Both the position numbers and the translations under genes were made by a program. A stretch of DNA of 12,176 nt from an uncultured Sulfitobacter sp. (GTDB taxonomy: Bacteria; Pseudomonadota; Alphaproteobacteria; Rhodobacterales; Rhodobacteraceae): positions 1 through 12,176 of the forward strand of contig CALAIJ010000019.1 of the NCBI GenBank assembly GCA_937923365.1, read 5' to 3'. A model generated the notes under the pieces. That model searched no databases. It was given only the letters and a program-made list of their open reading frames with translations, and was not told the DNA's origin. This document shows, piece after piece, positions 3,333 to 10,690 of this stretch (position 1 is its first letter; each line of letters opens with the position of its first letter).

Positions 3333-5261
3333 CTATCCAAGAATGGCAGTGGGGTCATTGGGGTTGAGGTTGCGGTCGTGGCGTTGTGCGGCATGGCGGC
3401 GGTACGCGATCCAGACGTCTTCGTCGGTCATTGACGGAAGCGGATAGTCACCGGGGGCAGAGAAGCCGGGTCTGGCCTCCGCCTCTGTCGCGGGGGGCTC
3501 GATGATGATCTCGACTTCGTCGATTTCAACGCTGGCGCGGGGGCGGTCAAACTGGCCTTGCAGCAGACCCGGCACGCCGCCGCGCTGGCCATTGGCCGTG
3601 GTGCTGGTGGGCCGGTTGCGAAAGTGCTCATCAACCGAATTCAAGATGGTGCGCAGTCCGGCGCCGTCGGTGAGCCAGCTTTGGTATGCGGTCGCAATCG
3701 CCTCTAACCCCGTTGGTGGCCCGTTTGCGTTGATCGGGGCCACGATCGCATTTGTCAGGGCGTCAGCGTTGTCGCGGATGCTGTCGATGCGCCTGCGTCG
3801 CAAGGTGTCGGACACCTGAACCTCGCGTTCGGCCGCCCTGCTGAAACCGTCGGTGATCCCGCGTAACCCCCGTGTGGCAGAGCCGGTCACGCCTTGTACC
3901 ATCGTGTTCATGCTGTCCACGGCTGCTGTGCTGTCGACCACGAGGCCCGCGCGAAAGGCATCAAGTTCGGTCCGGAAGTCAGGGAAGCCCGCGATCACAC
4001 CTGTTGCGACCGATCTGGGGGTGCGCGCGCCGGCAGCAGCACGTCGCCGACGTGCGGCGCGCCCCAGACCTGCGCGGTGGGCCTGCGCCAGTTGGCGGGT
4101 CATGCGCGGGGGCATCGTCGCGCCATTGTTGCGGTAAGCGGCAATGATGGCATGGATCGGCCCCAGCAAGGAGGGCAGGATACGGATCATATGGTCGATG
4201 GTCTGGAATGCAGGCTCATTTCCCAAGGCGCGAATGGCGCGAAACATCCCTGTGACCAACCAGCCAAGCAGGCCGGTGATGACCGTCTCAAGCGTGGTGG
4301 TCAGCGTGCTGATCGTGTCAAAGACAATGCCCACAAGCTGCTGCGCCATCGTGAGGATCGAGGCGAGGACCGTCTCGATTGTTGTGCCCAAAGCGCCCAC
4401 AACGCCCGCGGCAAGCCGCGCCGCGGCGGCCACGATATCGAACAGGGTTGTGAGCAAAACACCGCGCAACAACAGCACGTTGCGCAGCACAAAGCGGATC
4501 GTCTCGAGGATCTCCCGGCGGATTGATCCCAGACTGGTCACAAAGACCGCGATGGCACCCACCACATTGGGGATCAGCAGGATCAGCCCGTCCACCACAT
4601 GCATCAGACGGTCCAGCAGGACATTGATCCCGTTCAGGATCGCCATCCAGCTTTGCCCGCCCTGGGTCAGCACTTCGGGGGCCTGTACGCCTGCGCTGTT
4701 GGCGTTGGCAGTGCCGCCGTTCGCGGCGGTGAACAGGGCCGTCAACTGGCGCACCATGTCCTGAACGCCGCCCAGCGTGGTGGCAAGCGTCTCACCTGTC
4801 TGGGCCTGAGCCTGCGGGACGGAAGCGGGCTTGCCGTCTGCAGGGTCCTCGACCGTTTGAGCTGCATCATCAGCCATTGTCATGCGGATGATCTCGCGCA
4901 TGTCATCGGCAATCTCTTCGAGACTGTTGAGCATGCTTGGCAGGGCAAAGGCCGAAAAGAACCCGCCTACAGCCGATCCGAAAAGGCCGCCCACAAAGTT
5001 ACCGATCCCGCCAAAGAGGGATTCCAGTATCCCCCCCAGAGAATTGCCGGGCGCCAGATCATTGATGTTGACCACATGCACCATCAGGGCACCCTGGAAC
5101 ATTGGTGGCGCCCCGAATTTTGCTGCATCCGTCAGTGCTTTGGTGAACTCGAAGCCTACGTATCTGCTGGTGGACCGTTCGATGTCCTCCAGCGCACGGC
5201 GCGCGGTCCGGATTTGGACAAGCATGATGCCCAGCGACATGATGACGTCTTCATCTTCCAT
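3333..5261 (-). CDS. Large hydrophobic protein 3 of the tape-measure-position trio
   Basis: This 642-residue protein belongs to no family I recognise. Visible parts are: a charged N-terminal helix (about 1-45); a Gly-rich hydrophobic segment at 73-108 containing a perfect glycine zipper, G87-xxx-G91-xxx-G95-xxx-G99; a low-complexity Ala/Gln/Thr linker (132-200); and a long series of hydrophobic or amphipathic helices (204-375), including LMHVVDGLILLIPNVVGAIA and a Thr-rich run near 317-328. A strongly basic patch follows (386-416, with RAARRRR), then a soluble helical part and an acidic C-terminus. There is no signal peptide. AAGGAGGG lies 6 bases before the ATG, 16 bases after the preceding stop. 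Its place between the chaperone pair and the hub genes, its length and its helical, hydrophobic make-up resemble a tape measure protein that later inserts into the target membrane. Role inferred; the gene itself is firm. Confidence 0.85.
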   Translation of the reverse strand: MEDEDVIMSLGIMLVQIRTARRALEDIERSTSRYVGFEFTKALTDAAKFGAPPMFQGALMVHVVNINDLAPGNSLGGILESLFGGIGNFVGGLFGSAVGGFFSAFALPSMLNSLEEIADDMREIIRMTMADDAAQTVEDPADGKPASVPQAQAQTGETLATTLGGVQDMVRQLTALFTAANGGTANANSAGVQAPEVLTQGGQSWMAILNGINVLLDRLMHVVDGLILLIPNVVGAIAVFVTSLGSIRREILETIRFVLRNVLLLRGVLLTTLFDIVAAAARLAAGVVGALGTTIETVLASILTMAQQLVGIVFDTISTLTTTLETVITGLLGWLVTGMFRAIRALGNEPAFQTIDHMIRILPSLLGPIHAIIAAYRNNGATMPPRMTRQLAQAHRAGLGRAARRRRAAAGARTPRSVATGVIAGFPDFRTELDAFRAGLVVDSTAAVDSMNTMVQGVTGSATRGLRGITDGFSRAAEREVQVSDTLRRRRIDSIRDNADALTNAIVAPINANGPPTGLEAIATAYQSWLTDGAGLRTILNSVDEHFRNRPTSTTANGQRGGVPGLLQGQFDRPRASVEIDEVEIIIEPPATEAEARPGFSAPGDYPLPSMTDEDVWIAYRRHAAQRHDRNLNPNDPTAILG

Positions 5262-5277
5262 GATGTGCCCTCCTTTC

Positions 5278-7359
5278 CTATGGCCCGCTGGGCGCTGTTG
5301 AGACAGCAGCGTTTGGTGGCGCGTTGGCGGTCAGGGTTGCAAGGCGCTCCACGCCACTGGCGTAGGCGTTGCTGATTTCCGTGCCAAAGCGGCTGGCGAT
5401 CCGTGCGGCCAGCGCGCCATCGGTTTCATGTCCTGTGGCGGTGATTTGCATCCGGCGGGTGTGCACGCGGCCCACTTGCGCGCGCTCCAGCAGGATGCGC
5501 GGTGATGTCTCGTTGATCTGGACAGGCGTGCCTTCGCCCGCAAGGCGGTGCTGCTCCCATTCCTCCAGCACAAAGCGCAAATAGCCCGAGAGCGAGGCTG
5601 ACATGATGTTCATGCCCGCTTCGGGGGCTGAGGAGACCAGCCAGTTTGCGTATGTTGCCGCCAGAGGCCCCAGATCTGACTGGAACAGGCGCAGCTCGCT
5701 GTTGGGGAAGAGCGCATTCGCCTCATGCTCCGATTGCCGCAGGATCGTGGCGTGGGCATCTGTGAACTCGGCCGTCGCTGCGCCATTGGCCGCATGCGAG
5801 AAGGTGAAAGAGACCCCTTCAAGCAGCGTCACAATCTCTGAGGTGATTGTCTGGGTGCCCTGATTGGCCGCGTTACCTGCATCGATCAGGGCCGTGTTGA
5901 TGGCTTGGCGGGCAGGGTCCAGAAACAACTGGTGAATGTCGGGCATCGGGCGTCTGTGGATGCGCAGCGCAGGCGGCAAGGGGGCTGCGGGCAAAGCAGG
6001 TTGGTCCAGCAAGGGGACCAGTTGGGTCGCCCCGTCCAGCATCCCTTCGATGTCCAGATCAATGCCTTGGTTGTCGCGCAGATACTCTTCAAGCTGGCGG
6101 AAGTAGAAGCGCCGCGTTGGCCATTCATCCAGCGCGGCATTCAGACTGCCCATGCCCTCTTGAAGATTGCGGTGGGCCCAAGGGCCGTTTCCTTGGTTCA
6201 TGATAAAGTCTGTCAGCGTCAGGGTCCGGGGATCAGGGGCTTCGTATTTGTCGGGGCCAAAGATACCGTGGGCAATGTAATGGATGTCGTCGATCAGGGC
6301 TTCGAGGGTCTCGAACACGCCTTGCATCAAAGGGCCAAGGTTCATGGCACCCAGCATGCCGATAAAATGCACAACGCCGCCAACAATGGATCGCACCGCG
6401 TCCCACAGCGTTCTGAACTGGCCGAAGAACCGGCTGACGCCCAGCGACAGGGCGTAGGCGTAGACAGCGTAAAACGCGATTGTGCGGCGGAAATAATCCG
6501 ACATCTGTGTCTGGACGAGGGTCAGCAGATCAATCATCGCACCGGCATAGGTCTGCAACGCGGCATTCATATTGCCCAGCAAGGACTGGCGGAATTCCAA
6601 CACCTGCCGTTCGGCGGCAAAGACTTGATCCATCACGCTGTTTTTCAAAAACAACAGGATGTCGTGGCCAAGACGTGTGACCAAGTCGCCCATGACCGGG
6701 ATCACAAGCAAGGCGCCGGTGATGTAGCGCAGAATGTTATCAAGCTGCATGTGAAACGGCAGTGTTGCGGCAGCCGCCCCACCAGAGGCAAGTGCGGCGC
6801 CGTTTACGTTCTGCCCGCTGCCATAAAGCGCGCTGTGCACCCGTGTGCCCAGATCAAGTATGCCTGCACGCCCGTTTCCAACAGAGCGAAACGCGAGGCT
6901 GCCAAGGCCTACCAGATCAACGGCGGTCAAGGCACCGGGGTTGAACATGCTGGCAGGGGCGTCGTGCAACCGCGTAACAGAGCCGCGCGCAGCCCCCGTC
7001 ATGCGCGCCAGTATGCGCAGCAATCGCGGCATCAGGCGGGCCTCGGTGTAGCGGTCCGATATCTCGCGCGGGATGTTCCATTGCGCCCCGATGCGGGCAA
7101 AGCTATCGCCCAGACCGGGCGGGCCTTCTGACCACAATGCGCCGCGCTGCAATCCCGTGACACGGGCTGTCAGGGACAGGTTATAGAACATCACAACGGG
7201 GAATGCGCGGCTGTCGCGCTCTACCTTGTTGGCCTGTGACAGCCGACCGCCCAACCATTTGGAGATGATACCGCCATATTGGCCAAGCTCTTTGAGCCAG
7301 CGTTTGACTTGCCGTTCAAAGGGGGCGGCCTGGGCGTTCCAGATCAGGATGATGGGCAT
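5278..7359 (-). CDS. Large hydrophobic protein 2 of the tape-measure-position trio
   Basis: This 693-residue protein belongs to no family I recognise. The N-terminal 110 residues are mixed and basic (KRWLKELGQYGGIISKWLGG). Residues about 140-200 are Gly/Ala-rich. Hydrophobic or amphipathic helices occupy about 205-365 (YITGALLVIPVMGDLV, RRTIAFYAVYAYALSLGVSRF, IVGGVVHFIGMLGAM). A QFRTLWD motif at 314-320 closely matches QFRAFWD in the preceding trio protein. A Pro/Leu/Ala linker lies at 447-473, followed by a soluble helical C-terminal domain and a disordered Ala/Pro tail. It starts from a strong AGGAGG that overlaps the stop of the previous gene. Like its two neighbours it has a hydrophobic core and a soluble C-terminal third. 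A tape-measure or inner-tube role is inferred from position and composition; a secreted pore-forming cargo is the main alternative. Confidence 0.85.
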   Translation of the reverse strand: MPIILIWNAQAAPFERQVKRWLKELGQYGGIISKWLGGRLSQANKVERDSRAFPVVMFYNLSLTARVTGLQRGALWSEGPPGLGDSFARIGAQWNIPREISDRYTEARLMPRLLRILARMTGAARGSVTRLHDAPASMFNPGALTAVDLVGLGSLAFRSVGNGRAGILDLGTRVHSALYGSGQNVNGAALASGGAAAATLPFHMQLDNILRYITGALLVIPVMGDLVTRLGHDILLFLKNSVMDQVFAAERQVLEFRQSLLGNMNAALQTYAGAMIDLLTLVQTQMSDYFRRTIAFYAVYAYALSLGVSRFFGQFRTLWDAVRSIVGGVVHFIGMLGAMNLGPLMQGVFETLEALIDDIHYIAHGIFGPDKYEAPDPRTLTLTDFIMNQGNGPWAHRNLQEGMGSLNAALDEWPTRRFYFRQLEEYLRDNQGIDLDIEGMLDGATQLVPLLDQPALPAAPLPPALRIHRRPMPDIHQLFLDPARQAINTALIDAGNAANQGTQTITSEIVTLLEGVSFTFSHAANGAATAEFTDAHATILRQSEHEANALFPNSELRLFQSDLGPLAATYANWLVSSAPEAGMNIMSASLSGYLRFVLEEWEQHRLAGEGTPVQINETSPRILLERAQVGRVHTRRMQITATGHETDGALAARIASRFGTEISNAYASGVERLATLTANAPPNAAVSTAPSGP

Positions 7360-7366
7360 CTGCGCA

Positions 7367-7372
7367 CCTCCT
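7367..7372 (-). promoter_or_regulatory. Strong ribosome binding site of trio protein 2
   Basis: AGGAGG on the minus strand overlaps the TAG stop of the upstream gene and lies 7 bases before the ATG at 7359. It fixes that start and suggests coupled translation of the trio. Confidence 0.8.
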
Positions 7373-9203
7373 ATTCTGCGCCCGCGCCTTGGACGCGGTA
7401 GCTTTGGGATTGCAGGTGGGACACGACACTGTCGCGAAATGCCCGCATGTCGGGGGCCTGCACGGCGCCGCGCGCGCGGATCACCAGCTTGTTCACACGC
7501 GGCTGCAAACGTCCGCTGTCTGGCAGGTCAAGCTGCGGATGGGCGAGGGGCTGTGCTTCGGGCTGGGCATAAACCTGGTGGTCGATCATATCGAAAAAGC
7601 TGCGCAACTGCGGTGCGTAGACCCGCAGGTCACCGGGAAGGACCCGCCCGACGGCCAGATAGAGGGCGGCCCGAAGGCGCATGTCCGCATCCGTCCGTGA
7701 CGGCGCGCCGCGGGCCTCGTGCGCGCGCCGCTCTGCGTCCAGTACGCTGCGCGGGCGACGCAATATCCGGGCAGGCTGGTGCGCGTTTGGCATCTCGGCC
7801 CGGGCGCGTTCGAACAGCGCTGTGATATGTGCGCCCCAAGCGATTTCCGGCGCGCGGCCAATGCGCTGGGCGATCACCTTGCCATCCGGCAGCGTCGGTA
7901 CCTGAGGCATATCCGGCAGGGTGAAATCAGGCAGCTCGGGCACGGTCAACGCATCGATTTCGTCCAGCAAATCGGCCGCTTCTGTATGGGTGTCGAACGC
8001 GACCCCCAGATACCACATGCCGCGCAGGGTGGTTGCCAGATCCTCCTCGCCCTCATCTGTGTCATCGGGGCCGGGCGTGTTATAGGTAAGTTGAATGCGG
8101 CTGATGACCCGTGGCAGCAGTGCCATCAGGTCCGTGGCAAGCGTGATCAACTGGCCGAGGATCGAGGCGTTGAAGGCGTCCTGTATCCGGTCCTTCACGG
8201 TGTCGATATAGTCGTCCAGCGCGGACTTCATGCTGTCATAGAGCGTCGTCATTTCAGTGGTGATGGTGTCCATGAGCCCCTTCAGGCCGTCCATCAGAAT
8301 GTCTGGAATGGTCAGGATCATGTCGTAGACATGGGTCAGAATGCCGACAATGCCGCCGCCCGCAAGGAACGGGGTCAGCAGCGCCTCGGCAATGCCGCCG
8401 ACCGCGTCTGACAAAGTGTCCTTCAGGGTCATTGTCAGATCCCAAAAGGCGCGAAACTGGGTCATCAGGTAGGGCACCAACGGCAAGACACGCACCGCGA
8501 GGATGGCCACAAACCCAAGCAAATGCGCGAAAAAGCCGGCGGAGCGGTCAAGGAAATCCAGTAAGCTGCGCAGCAGCGGATTGTTGACCTCGTCGCGCGG
8601 TCTGCTGATCTGATCCCAAAGGGTCAGGCCCGCATCCAGCATCGCGGCCAGATCATGCATCAGATCGACAACAAGTGCTGTTGTCCGGTCTCCGCCGATG
8701 CCCAGTCCCAGCGACCAGAGCAGACCAACAGGGATCGCAATGGCGCCAATGACCGGCAGGACAAACAGGTTGGAGACCCAGTTTGCGATGCCGCTGAAGA
8801 ACAGGATGATCCACTGCGTCCATTCGCGGTCTTTGATCACGTCAGAGAGTTCGGTCATCCAGTAACCGACCAGCGCGGCCCCGCCGGGCGACAGCACATA
8901 GCCGACCACGACACCTGCCATACCGGTAAGAGGCCCCATCAGGGACATGCCTGTCGGGGCCGTGCGGGCAGAGGCGCGCACCCGTTCAAAACGGTCCCGT
9001 AATGCACCGATGTTTCGAATGGCAATAAAGAGGTTCAGATGTTTGACAGGCACGGATGTGCCGAACCAATGGACCAGAAACGCCGCACGTGCACGTCTGA
9101 GCAACTGCTCTTCCAGCCGCACGAGACGGTCCCACGGGGCCAACCCCTTGCTGACCTTGGTCAGCGTCGTGGTCAGTTCAGGAATGAGTGCAATAGGTTC
9201 CAT
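7371..9203 (-). CDS. Large hydrophobic protein 1 of the tape-measure-position trio
   Basis: This 610-residue protein (from the ATG at 9203) belongs to no family I recognise. An amphipathic basic N-terminus (1-80) is followed by several segments hydrophobic enough to span a membrane: 88-116, 131-170 (with WIILFFSGIA and LPVIGAIAIPVGLLW), 222-248 and about 266-300. A helical acidic stretch (300-370), a Pro-rich linker at 421-441 (VPELPDFTLPDMPQVPTLP) and a basic soluble C-terminal part (445-610) complete it. QFRAFWD at 249-255 resembles QFRTLWD in the next protein. An in-frame ATG at 9257 would add 18 residues and overlap the DUF6760 segment by 32 bases. I prefer 9203, but both starts have only a weak GGGA, unlike the other genes, so initiation may depend on ribosomes ending at 9226. 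Tape measure role inferred from position directly after the frameshift pair. Confidence 0.82.
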   Translation of the reverse strand: MEPIALIPELTTTLTKVSKGLAPWDRLVRLEEQLLRRARAAFLVHWFGTSVPVKHLNLFIAIRNIGALRDRFERVRASARTAPTGMSLMGPLTGMAGVVVGYVLSPGGAALVGYWMTELSDVIKDREWTQWIILFFSGIANWVSNLFVLPVIGAIAIPVGLLWSLGLGIGGDRTTALVVDLMHDLAAMLDAGLTLWDQISRPRDEVNNPLLRSLLDFLDRSAGFFAHLLGFVAILAVRVLPLVPYLMTQFRAFWDLTMTLKDTLSDAVGGIAEALLTPFLAGGGIVGILTHVYDMILTIPDILMDGLKGLMDTITTEMTTLYDSMKSALDDYIDTVKDRIQDAFNASILGQLITLATDLMALLPRVISRIQLTYNTPGPDDTDEGEEDLATTLRGMWYLGVAFDTHTEAADLLDEIDALTVPELPDFTLPDMPQVPTLPDGKVIAQRIGRAPEIAWGAHITALFERARAEMPNAHQPARILRRPRSVLDAERRAHEARGAPSRTDADMRLRAALYLAVGRVLPGDLRVYAPQLRSFFDMIDHQVYAQPEAQPLAHPQLDLPDSGRLQPRVNKLVIRARGAVQAPDMRAFRDSVVSHLQSQSYRVQGAGAE

Positions 9204-9225
9204 CAGGGTCCCGTGGGTTAAGTCG

Positions 9226-9459
9226 TCAGCCCGAACGGGCCGACTTGATCTGGGCATTTTCCCGCTCGATCTGTTCCGACAGCAGTTTCACGAAGGCTCT
9301 GCGTTCGGAGGAGGCGAGGTCGATAATCTCGGACCATGGCCAGTGCAGATGATAAGCGAGGAAAAAGATCTCCTGCCTGAGCGCTTCGCTGCTCAGGCCA
9401 GAGACAAAAAATTCGTCATGTCCAAATTCGATTTCATCTCTGCGCCGCAGCTGTAGCAT
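9226..9459 (-). CDS. DUF6760 (Afp6-like) segment, probably made by -1 frameshift
   Basis: The open frame codes for 77 residues if an ATG at 9459 is used. The conserved DUF6760 part is clear: EALRQEIFFLAYHLHWPWSE followed by IIDLASSERRAFVKLL, matching the family pattern of E-E-x-x-x-x-AYHFHW-x-x-x-E-hydrophobic-x-x-L-x-x-x-ERR-x-W/F-V. In eCIS clusters this short protein lies near the tube and baseplate genes; its role is not known to me. The first 18 codons overlap the chaperone gene, encode a charged stretch unlike the family (MLQLRRRDEIEFGHDEFF), and have only a weak GGGA upstream. The family part begins exactly where the slippery site ends. I therefore infer that the segment is made mainly as a C-terminal extension of the chaperone, 59 residues from the GTC codon at 9405. 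Independent initiation at 9459 remains possible. Confidence 0.8.
   Translation of the reverse strand: MLQLRRRDEIEFGHDEFFVSGLSSEALRQEIFFLAYHLHWPWSEIIDLASSERRAFVKLLSEQIERENAQIKSARSG
9375..9411 (-). promoter_or_regulatory. -1 programmed ribosomal frameshift signal (slippery heptamer plus hairpin)
   Basis: On the minus strand the heptamer T_TTT_TTG occupies 9411-9405, in the right phase for the chaperone frame (AAT TTT TTG). A 6-base spacer (TCTCTG, 9404-9399) follows. Then come two perfect 8-base arms, GCCTGAGC (9398-9391) and GCTCAGGC (9382-9375), around AGCGAAGC, which can itself fold as a GCGAAGC mini-hairpin. The zero-frame TGA (9395-9393) lies within the 5' arm. A -1 slip re-reads from 9405 in the DUF6760 frame and gives a fusion of 260 + 59 = 319 residues ending at 9226. 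Slippery site, spacing and stem all match known bacterial and phage -1 signals. Frameshifting itself is inferred. Confidence 0.82.
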
Positions 9460-10184
9460 TCGCGGTCCCGCATCAGATCAACCCCGGGGGCGGCCTTGTT
9501 GAGGGCCTGATCAATCAAACGCCGGTCCGTCAGGGTGAGGTCCGACAGCAGACGTGCGCCCAATGCCTCCACGCGGTGCGGGGACATGTCGCCAACTTTC
9601 TTGAGGCAACGCGATAGCAGGGCGTTCTTGCCCAAGGACGGATTTTTGCGCGTCATCGGGGCCACGGCGGTTTCGTCAACGCCGCGCGGCAGGGTCAGCA
9701 CGATGGTTGTGTGGCACGCACCGTCCTTGTCCCAATACCCGTCCTCAAGCTCGACAGTGATGTCGGCCAGTTCTTCGTCAGGGCCGAGTGCGGTGACCGG
9801 AAGCTCGTCGAGGTTCTCCATCACGTCGTGCTTTTCACCGCAACTGGCGCAGGTGTAGCTGGCGGGCAATTCAGGGCCAAAGGTAAAGCTGCGCAGCTTG
9901 ATCAACACAAAGTTGCGGTCGGCAGAATACCAGTTGGCCACATCCTGTTTGGTCAGCTTGGCCTCGCCCTCGAACTGGGTGATGCAGGAATGCAAAAGCT
10001 CGGTGACGAGCTTGCCACCATTGTGCTGGTTGGACCGATCAGCGAGGATCGCCTCCTCCCTACCGGTCATTTTGCGCAACGCACCGGTGCGCCGTGTGGC
10101 GGCATCGTCGGTCGCATAGCCGATGGGCAGCGTGAATTCCATTTCGCGCGCCTGTGGTTTGATGTCGGGTGTTGCGATGTTCAT
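9393..10184 (-). CDS. T4-baseplate-chaperone-like assembly protein with two CxxC pairs
   Basis: This 263-residue protein matches the CIS-associated relatives of T4 baseplate hub assembly chaperones. Marks are EFTLPIGYATDD (16-27), KMTGREEAILADR (38-50), NGGKLVTELLHSCI (55-68) and SADRNFVLIKLRSFTFG (87-103), all usual in these proteins. CxxC pairs at 112/115 (YTCASCGEKH) and 243/246 (RECYSCGAEM) could bind one zinc ion between them. A helical region (200-230) lies between the two pairs. By synteny with P2 gene E and lambda G it sits after the tube gene and before the tape-measure-position genes, so a tube assembly chaperone role is likely. AGGAG lies 8 bases before the ATG. The last codons hold a slippery site, so a fraction of the product should be extended by the DUF6760 segment. 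The second CxxC lies just 13 residues before the slip. Confidence 0.83.
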   Translation of the reverse strand: MNIATPDIKPQAREMEFTLPIGYATDDAATRRTGALRKMTGREEAILADRSNQHNGGKLVTELLHSCITQFEGEAKLTKQDVANWYSADRNFVLIKLRSFTFGPELPASYTCASCGEKHDVMENLDELPVTALGPDEELADITVELEDGYWDKDGACHTTIVLTLPRGVDETAVAPMTRKNPSLGKNALLSRCLKKVGDMSPHRVEALGARLLSDLTLTDRRLIDQALNKAAPGVDLMRDRECYSCGAEMKSNLDMTNFLSLA

Positions 10185-10210: not shown

Positions 10211-10690
10211 TCAGGCAGCGGCGATGCGCTCCAGCCCTTCGTGTTCGATTTCAAGTGTTTGGGTGAAGAAGCTGTCTGATCCCGCCTCAAGGTCGCTGAA
10301 CTTGGAGGACTTGATCCACGCCTGCATCACCAGAAAGGTCAGCACCGGTTCGCCGTAGTCCAGTTTCACGATCTGAAAGCTGCGCCGGACACGCGACCCC
10401 CGCGAGAAGTTCTCGGAGAGGTGGAAGGTCTCGCGCCACCAATCCAGAAACCGCTGGTCTTCGGGGCTGTTGTCCATCCGCCGCTCGATTGTCAGCATTT
10501 CGTATTTGACCTTGGTGGAGGATATCTTGCGGACCAGCAGTCCCCCTCCGTCGGGTTGCTCGATCGTGTCGTAGCTGCCTTCACTCAGCCCGCTGATGCG
10601 GGTGATGCCGGGGCTTTCCAATCCATCCAGCAAAAGCCGATATTCGGTCGCTTTCATGCCGTCGTAGTTGCCGTCTGATGCCAGTGCCAT
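10211..10690 (-). CDS. Contractile tail inner tube protein, gp19/Afp1-like
   Basis: This 159-residue protein is of usual length for the T4 gp19-like tail tube family, whose hexamers stack to form the inner tube pushed through the target envelope. Visible family features are the N-terminal strand EYRLLLDGLESPGITRISGL (16-35), where the family normally has a short ligand-domain start ending in a SGL motif; VRKISSTKVKYEMLTIERRM (53-72), where the family has VRKxPGxxxYxxxTLKRG; and the closing strands LTFLVMQAWIKSSKFSDLEA (118-137) and QTLEIEHEGLERI (144-156). AAGGAG lies 6 bases before the ATG. The gene starts 24 bases after the sheath stop, the usual sheath-tube pair. Only one tube gene is seen in the window; eCIS often have two or three paralogues, which might lie outside it. 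Confidence 0.92.
   Translation of the reverse strand: MALASDGNYDGMKATEYRLLLDGLESPGITRISGLSEGSYDTIEQPDGGGLLVRKISSTKVKYEMLTIERRMDNSPEDQRFLDWWRETFHLSENFSRGSRVRRSFQIVKLDYGEPVLTFLVMQAWIKSSKFSDLEAGSDSFFTQTLEIEHEGLERIAAA

Follow-up and report, generated by a model that had tools for sequence, protein, structure and literature searches.

Comparison of related loci makes it very probable that the tail assembly chaperone (TAC) encoded in the window, i.e. the whole stretch of 12,176 nucleotides analyzed here, arises from a single gene as a short and a long form through a -1 slip on the heptamer T_TTT_TTG, with DUF6760 (PF20546) as the end of the long form. Most ribosomes would stop at position 9393 and release a short form of 263 residues. 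A minority would slip one base back on T_TTT_TTG, where tRNA-Phe and tRNA-Leu could re-pair with TTT TTT, and would then continue beyond the stop into the 59-residue DUF6760, resulting in a long form of 319 residues. If the system works like lambda G/GT, numerous short and few long copies would cover the tape-measure protein, with the DUF6760 part recruiting tube subunits. That ribosomes slip in the cell, how often they do so and what each form does in assembly is inferred.

On the minus strand, the genes follow in the order sheath, tube, chaperone (PF12322), DUF6760 and three large tape-measure-like open reading frames (assigned by Pfam and PHROG), and continue with a CIS_tube protein, a 103-aa gene, a 393-aa gene and a VgrG-like tip. 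The gene preceding the chaperone (10211..10690, minus strand) encodes a tail tube protein (PF06841, Phage_T4_gp19; Pfam E 2.5e-14). The TAC-N-like short form of the chaperone (263 aa; 9393..10184, minus strand) matches PF12322, T4_baseplate (Pfam E 5.1e-12; PHROG 150 E 1.2e-13), starts at an ATG with a 5-nt SD match ahead and ends in DMTNFLSLA*.

The minus-strand 3′-end of this gene reads ...GAC ATG ACG AAT TTT TTG TCT CTG GCC TGA, where AAT TTT TTG are the zero-frame codons 258-260 of 263. In agreement with an earlier note on this DNA, T_TTT_TTG (minus strand, 9411-9405) lies in the correct phase, with TTT (Phe259) in the P site and TTG (Leu260) in the A site, and is followed by the 6-nt spacer TCTCTG (9404-9399) and by a perfect 8-bp GC-rich hairpin (9375..9398) whose 5′ arm contains the zero-frame stop TGA (9395-9393). 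As likewise claimed there, the -1 frame past the heptamer reads directly into VSGLSSEALRQEIFFLAYHLHW..., an extension of 59 residues (9229..9405, minus strand; stop TGA 9228-9226) that matches PF20546 DUF6760 at 27 bits, which is exactly the curated cut-off; the predicted product length, 260 + 59 = 319 residues, adds up correctly. Mechanically, a gene caller would give a free DUF6760 protein of 77 aa, starting from an ATG at 9459 (9226..9459, minus strand). T_TTT_TTG is the sole in-phase T6R/A6R slippery site in the ten minus-strand genes, with 0.25 expected from codon shuffles, and in-phase X_XXY_YYZ heptamers of any kind number 6 in these genes vs 17 expected. In the window alone, the coincidence of heptamer and hairpin is suggestive; it is the comparison with relatives that carries the argument.

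For this comparison, a profile of 20 chaperones yielded 36 genomic loci and 12 on viral contigs, which together with the window make up 49 loci. They were fetched by the motifs RKMTG[RKN][ED]E and [WM]YSADRN[FY] in the first half of the chaperone; since these motifs are far from the junction, the heptamer was not selected for in the set. The loci represent about ten phyla, the named taxa being Alpha- and Gammaproteobacteria, Myxococcota, Actinomycetota, Chloroflexota, Acidobacteria, Rhodothermaceae, Planctomycetota, Cyanobacteria, Gemmatimonadetes and Symbiobacteriaceae. In 49/49 loci, the frame resembling DUF6760 is -1 relative to the chaperone (the contig of L034 ends within this frame), and T_TTT_TTN is present in 41/49 and T_TTT_TTR in 36/49, although these counts are not independent events because the loci share ancestry. 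The heptamer is T_TTT_TTA in 27 loci, T_TTT_TTG in nine, T_TTT_TTT in three, T_TTT_TTC in two and T_TTC_TTG in five, and the sites T_TTC_CTG (L005), G_TTT_TTC (L035) and an unrelated one (L052) occur in a single locus each. Thus, the heptamer is conserved at related junctions, a test that the earlier note had proposed, and this conservation supports the note's central claim, namely that a programmed -1 frameshift ahead of the tape-measure genes joins DUF6760 to the chaperone.

The five T_TTC_TTG loci (L030, L031, L032, L047 and L051) comprise three Actinomycetota and two viral-collection contigs. On this heptamer only the P-site tRNA can re-pair fully, and a P-site slippage variant is possible there. 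The nearest genome relative of the window (L005, 79% identical) has T_TTC_CTG instead of the heptamer together with an ATGA start overlap (4738-4760), and a switch to reinitiation is possible in this case; the slippery-site solution is thus not universal. Homologues are few in the window's family, order, class and phylum: a search with the DUF6760 protein gave 3/149 genomes, and searches with the chaperone profile gave 2/292, 6/385 and 3/398, the window's own genome being counted throughout. A scan of viral contigs with the single window protein returned nothing, the same scan with the L052 extension returned only itself, and a plasmid search gave no match. One candidate, L004, was rejected as a chance match inside a penicillin-binding-protein-like frame. 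Of the 49 extensions, 37 entered one alignment and 29 the other.

The G+C content of 43/49 loci is 61-74%, and the chaperone genes there hardly use TTT or TTA. In a codon-identity test performed earlier, the site did not stand out (z 2.3 for residue 258, noise level for 259 and 260); it gave little because it measures codon sameness and not rarity. The codon-surprise test, which was chosen after that outcome, scores the rarity of the codons in each column given each locus's own usage, and covered 245 columns and 43 non-redundant loci (L052 and the near-duplicates L039-L042 and L046 were dropped from the 49 for the codon tests). The top five of the 245 columns are window residues 258-262 (z 20.5, 17.8, 36.0, 17.4 and 8.2), followed by a column at 3.45; none of the columns 234-257 is above 2.92, and codon choice upstream of 258 is normal. 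Phe259 is encoded by TTT in 37/43 non-redundant loci, compared with 30/206 Phe codons at other positions of these genes. At position 260, 23/43 loci have TTA, a codon that accounts for 9/1371 Leu codons elsewhere, and the base ahead of the slip-site Phe codon is T in 42/43. As a within-gene control, the conserved Phe102 is TTT in 7/46 loci vs 43/49 for Phe259 (the 49 include the poorly aligned L052). Constraint beyond the zero-frame protein thus starts at the heptamer, which fits a frameshift there and not an internal start 48 bases upstream. At the level of sequence, selection on the in-phase heptamer, a constant -1 phase and dual coding from the heptamer on are evident.

In seven loci, the slip codon TTA is the bldA codon (L010, L011, L016 and L042 from Streptomyces or Streptomyces-like organisms; L024, L025 and L040 from other Actinomycetota), and no other TTA occurs in them among roughly 244 chaperone codons counted. 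The frameshift rate at the actinomycete loci with a TTA slip codon could depend on a scarce tRNA. According to the available text of PMC10020575, 42/56 Streptomyces eCIS regions have at least one TTA-containing gene.

The earlier note had also stated that three independent elements line up. All of them are present in the window, but the statement goes too far for the hairpin, which is unconserved in relatives. In the window, its arms GCCTGAGC (9398-9391) and GCTCAGGC (9382-9375) form 8/8 pairs around an 8-nt loop, and none of 300 random synonymous recodings of the -1 frame pairs equally well (z -4.3). The 66 nt from 9415 to 9350 fold at -24.9 kcal/mol vs a dinucleotide-shuffle mean of -17.1 (sd 3.0), with 5/200 shuffles as good. 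Perfect 8-bp stems with loops of 3-10 nt have four start positions on the minus strand, two of which belong to one overlapping stem. Among the relatives, a short stem of the window type reached p<0.05 in 6/47 loci, namely the window, four Lysobacter-type loci (L020, L023, L039 and L044) and L037; its mean z over the 47 loci is -0.22, and 27/47 values are negative, the same count as for both control placements. An alternative long stem, GTAGxCCAGGAA/TTYCTGGCCTAC, was significant in 12/47 loci (mean z -0.40), and the two control stem placements in 5/47 and 0/47 (mean z -0.32 and -0.14). Whole-region folding gave a mean z of -0.52 with 34/48 loci negative (L034 was left out of the folding, and L034 and L052 out of the stem tests).

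Covariation or compensatory support beyond shuffles was found for neither the short nor the long stem in the 29 gap-free loci. A conserved stimulatory hairpin was therefore rejected, and the conservation of the stem with compensatory changes that the earlier note had proposed to look for failed to appear. As the stems are unconserved and show no covariation, stimulators would be lineage-specific at best, and the window hairpin is a candidate with a presumed stimulating role. A downstream stimulatory structure, strong in the window and unconserved among the loci, is by definition not needed for a TAC frameshift. Three other features of such a frameshift were found: two frames between the tube and tape-measure genes, a conserved in-phase heptamer and a -1 frame open through the stop.

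The family of the window chaperone, PF12322, also covers T4 gp26 and gp51, of which gp51 has an extra C-terminal tail. T4 differs in that gp26 and gp51 are separate genes on opposite strands. The gp51 tail resembles DUF6760 weakly and non-significantly (PHROG 634 E 0.012; P 0.16), and the window has the domains in different frames. Vladimirov et al. (2022) reportedly deals with the TACs of T4-like phages. T4 genes 26 and 51 (L053 7803-9229) both encode full-length PF12322 proteins, and gp26/gp51 are possibly the two-gene counterpart of the short and long chaperone. Both are given as hub assembly chaperones in the text available from PMC3004832.

The statement in the earlier note that P2 uses the same heptamer proved correct, as AF063097 annotates the E+E′ -1 site with the sequence GGT TTT TTG. 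P2 E/E+E′ (PF10109/PF06528) shares with the window the position of T_TTT_TTG near the chaperone gene end, between the tube (FII) and tape-measure (T) genes, as well as a -1 extension containing HW. It differs in having six codons from heptamer to stop vs three in the window, and E comprises 91 aa vs 263 aa with two CxxC pairs in the window chaperone. A direct profile comparison of the window chaperone with P2 E found nothing; P2 E′ and the DUF6760 extension show a weak profile match around the common HW (P 2.4e-4, probability 43%). PF10109, the P2 E family, is carried by 28 of the 120 chaperone homologues listed (of 645), and the window chaperone itself has no PF10109 match in Pfam at E up to 0.1. 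The heptamer of lambda G/GT differs from T_TTT_TTG. Lambda has in common with the window a frameshift near the end of the first gene and, as far as the accessible text of PMC5009743 describes it, a short and a long chaperone that act on the tape measure. Likewise, the TAC frameshift of Vandenendeviridae and Andersonviridae (GTTTTT motif) combines a T-rich conserved -1 site with a downstream open reading frame reread as chaperone extension, according to the part of PMC12846349 available; these, however, are phages.

We infer the TAC function from position, family and the frameshift itself, since the sequence likeness to P2 E′ and to the gp51 tail is weak. A PDB search with the chaperone profile gave one match only, at E 1.9. 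The predicted structure of the chaperone has a mean pLDDT of 90, and three helices are predicted for the DUF6760 extension (mean pLDDT 88). In the model, the chaperone (9393-10184) seems to be built from two halves that resemble each other, both having a beta hairpin, helices and one CxxC pair (at residues 112/115 and 243/246, respectively), which suggests an internal duplication.

The earlier note had further grouped DUF6760 with Afp6-type proteins. This we could not substantiate: Alg6/Cis6, the Afp6 orthologues, are described in the text available from PMC8894135 and PMC8894136 as a spike plug present in mature particles, and the DUF6760 profile, compared with PDB sequences at E up to 10, gave six matches, none of them to a contractile-system chain, although the plug chains are perhaps outside that set. 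It follows the same lines that the -1 shift might be real and the extension such a spike plug instead of a chaperone domain, a reading that we consider very unlikely. It draws on the small size and helical nature of the protein, on its location close to baseplate genes of contractile clusters and on the plug being essential for assembly in AlgoCIS (PMC8894135, available text). Besides the outcome of the PDB comparison, with its reservation on the plug chains, the place before the tape measure and the link to the chaperone speak against it and fit a TAC.

We also considered how else the -1 frame could be translated. Termination-reinitiation, i.e. a separate DUF6760 coupled to the chaperone stop by an ATGA/GTGA overlap as in L005, would account for the 14/49 loci in which a start codon overlaps the zero-frame TGA and for L005 itself, which has an ATG and no heptamer. 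At these 14 loci, free DUF6760 could accordingly be made as well. The window, however, has CTGA, the zero frame ends with TAG in 25/49 loci and with TAA in 3/49, where no such overlap is possible, and the heptamer would be left unexplained. As a general explanation reinitiation is therefore highly improbable; it may act as an add-on or replacement in some lineages.

An independent small DUF6760 protein initiated within the chaperone gene (ATG 9459, 77 aa), with the heptamer being incidental, has hardly any probability. The ATG is there, an ATG, GTG or TTG is found at the matching place (-64) in 26/49 loci, and gene callers give many proteins of 74-79 aa. Yet, as we read the loci, such a start arises where the codon ahead of the conserved Cys243 ends in A, G or T, and the SD match at the 26 loci has a length of 0 in 19, 3 in five and 4 in two of them; in the window the ATG has only a 3-nt match ahead. 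Moreover, the -1 frame of 10/49 loci lacks any ATG, GTG or TTG from the preceding stop until 14 bases beyond the zero-frame stop, codon usage ahead of residue 258 is normal, and T_TTT_TTR would be left unexplained. The 77-aa frame overlaps the chaperone with its first 16 residues, and the corresponding stretches of database relatives, from the start to the heptamer, do not resemble one another. The 98 database homologues of the extension have predicted lengths that scatter from 44 to 81 aa. An anchor motif was matched by 61 of these 98 DUF6760 proteins, the other 37 being not judged; of the 61, 36 extend across the slip site, where 33 read FF. FF in the -1 frame together with FL in the zero frame implies T_TTT_TTN, where FL was assumed for the partners. 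The window's nearest relatives are among the 33 FF-reading proteins, and the stretch ahead of FF is unlike between proteins. Transcriptional slippage on the T6 run, which would produce mixed mRNAs in place of ribosomal slippage, has a next to negligible probability: the six-T run is conserved, with seven T in the three T_TTT_TTT loci, but the T_TTC_TTG group breaks the run yet keeps the frame arrangement, and six T are short for slippage by bacterial RNA polymerase.

In addition to the -1 frameshift on T_TTT_TTN, we observed other arrangements of the two domains. One open frame comprises both the chaperone and a DUF6760-like part in three loci from genomes of the window's class (L056, L057 and L059; Pfam DUF6760 below cut-off at E 0.0043, 0.026 and 9e-6, and T4_baseplate in L059 only at E 0.25) and in three further loci (L086-L088; DUF6760 profile E 5e-5, 4e-4 and 2e-3) in the genomes that harbor L008 (Myxococcus) and L036 (a cyanobacterium). 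Six loci (L003, L058, L062, L063, L084 and L085) have a short chaperone with an open frame of 123-175 aa and then a -1 DUF6760-like frame (E 7e-16 to 2e-10); the junction has GGGGAR before the stop in five of them and a lambda-like G_GGA_AAG in L062. In a seventh short chaperone relative, L061, no DUF6760-like frame was found after the chaperone. The phages pSt2308, SP-15 and BRock (L081, L082 and L083) have the same gene order, with a gp51/DUF6760-like sequence in +1, as judged by eye; in BRock there is no start codon from -26 to +30 of the stop, and the gene annotated in that frame starts 34 bases on.

Most of these alternative arrangements support DUF6760 as a chaperone domain. They also allow a wider, still tentative proposal that we regard as possible: DUF6760 and the gp51 tail may be one "T domain" common to the tail chaperones of contractile systems, whose short and long forms would be made interchangeably by a -1 slip on T_TTT_TTR (as in the window), by a -1 slip on G_GGG_GAR or the lambda-like G_GGA_AAG (the short chaperones, of which two have a Pvc16_N gene at a distance of 6-10 kb), by a +1 shift (BRock, pSt2308 and SP-15), by one-frame fusion in some clusters or by two genes (T4). 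In Streptomyces, the TTA slip codon could add a dependence on the bldA tRNA.

The presence of PF14065 together with an AAA+ ATPase is invariable in eCIS according to the available text of PMC10020575. PF14065 (Pvc16_N, tail terminator) was not found in the window's genome, which is 65% complete and has the window on a 12-kb stretch. It occurs in 8/22 genomes or records searched, and three genomes have it close to a different chaperone relative. Its distance from a different, short chaperone is 6-10 kb in the Streptomyces and Actinomadura genomes, and in the Myxococcus genome, it is present twice, about 2 kb from the one-frame versions. The cyanobacterium has it about 4 kb away from the L036 chaperone, whose site is T_TTT_TTT. 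On account of this distribution, we describe the window cluster as a contractile tail-like cluster only.

The mechanism is a known one, that of the lambda G/GT- or P2 E/E′-type tail chaperone frameshift, and the family is new. The use of this phage-tail mechanism by DUF6760 seems to be unreported: no mention of DUF6760 was found in the literature searched, a coverage that leaves out most subscription papers, and the publications on contractile injection systems and ribosomal frameshifting treat only other frameshifts in the parts available. If the two-form chaperone is real, a Pfam family of unknown function and the small proteins annotated as free would be a frameshifted chaperone end in the contractile tail clusters of many phyla, and annotations as well as particle reconstitution would have to include both forms. 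Moreover, these clusters would be linked with P2 E/E′ and the hub chaperones of T4 in one testable scheme of how contractile systems determine the length of their tubes. Frameshifting itself is textbook knowledge, which limits the surprise.

Downstream of the junction, three large open reading frames of 628, 693 and 642 aa with weak tape-measure matches lie in a row (window 3333-9257, minus strand); most tails have one tape-measure gene. The first (7371..9257, minus strand) has weak PHROG tape-measure matches (best E 2e-4), and its true start may be nearer 9203. The second (5278..7359, minus strand) has a very weak PHROG match (E 0.033), and the third (3333..5261, minus strand) has PHROG tape-measure matches with a best E of 2.8e-6. 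The viral-collection contig L067 has the same gene order as the window, including three large open reading frames in a row; this similar trio (8078-13506; 570, 639 and 587 aa) has a tape-measure match in the first only.
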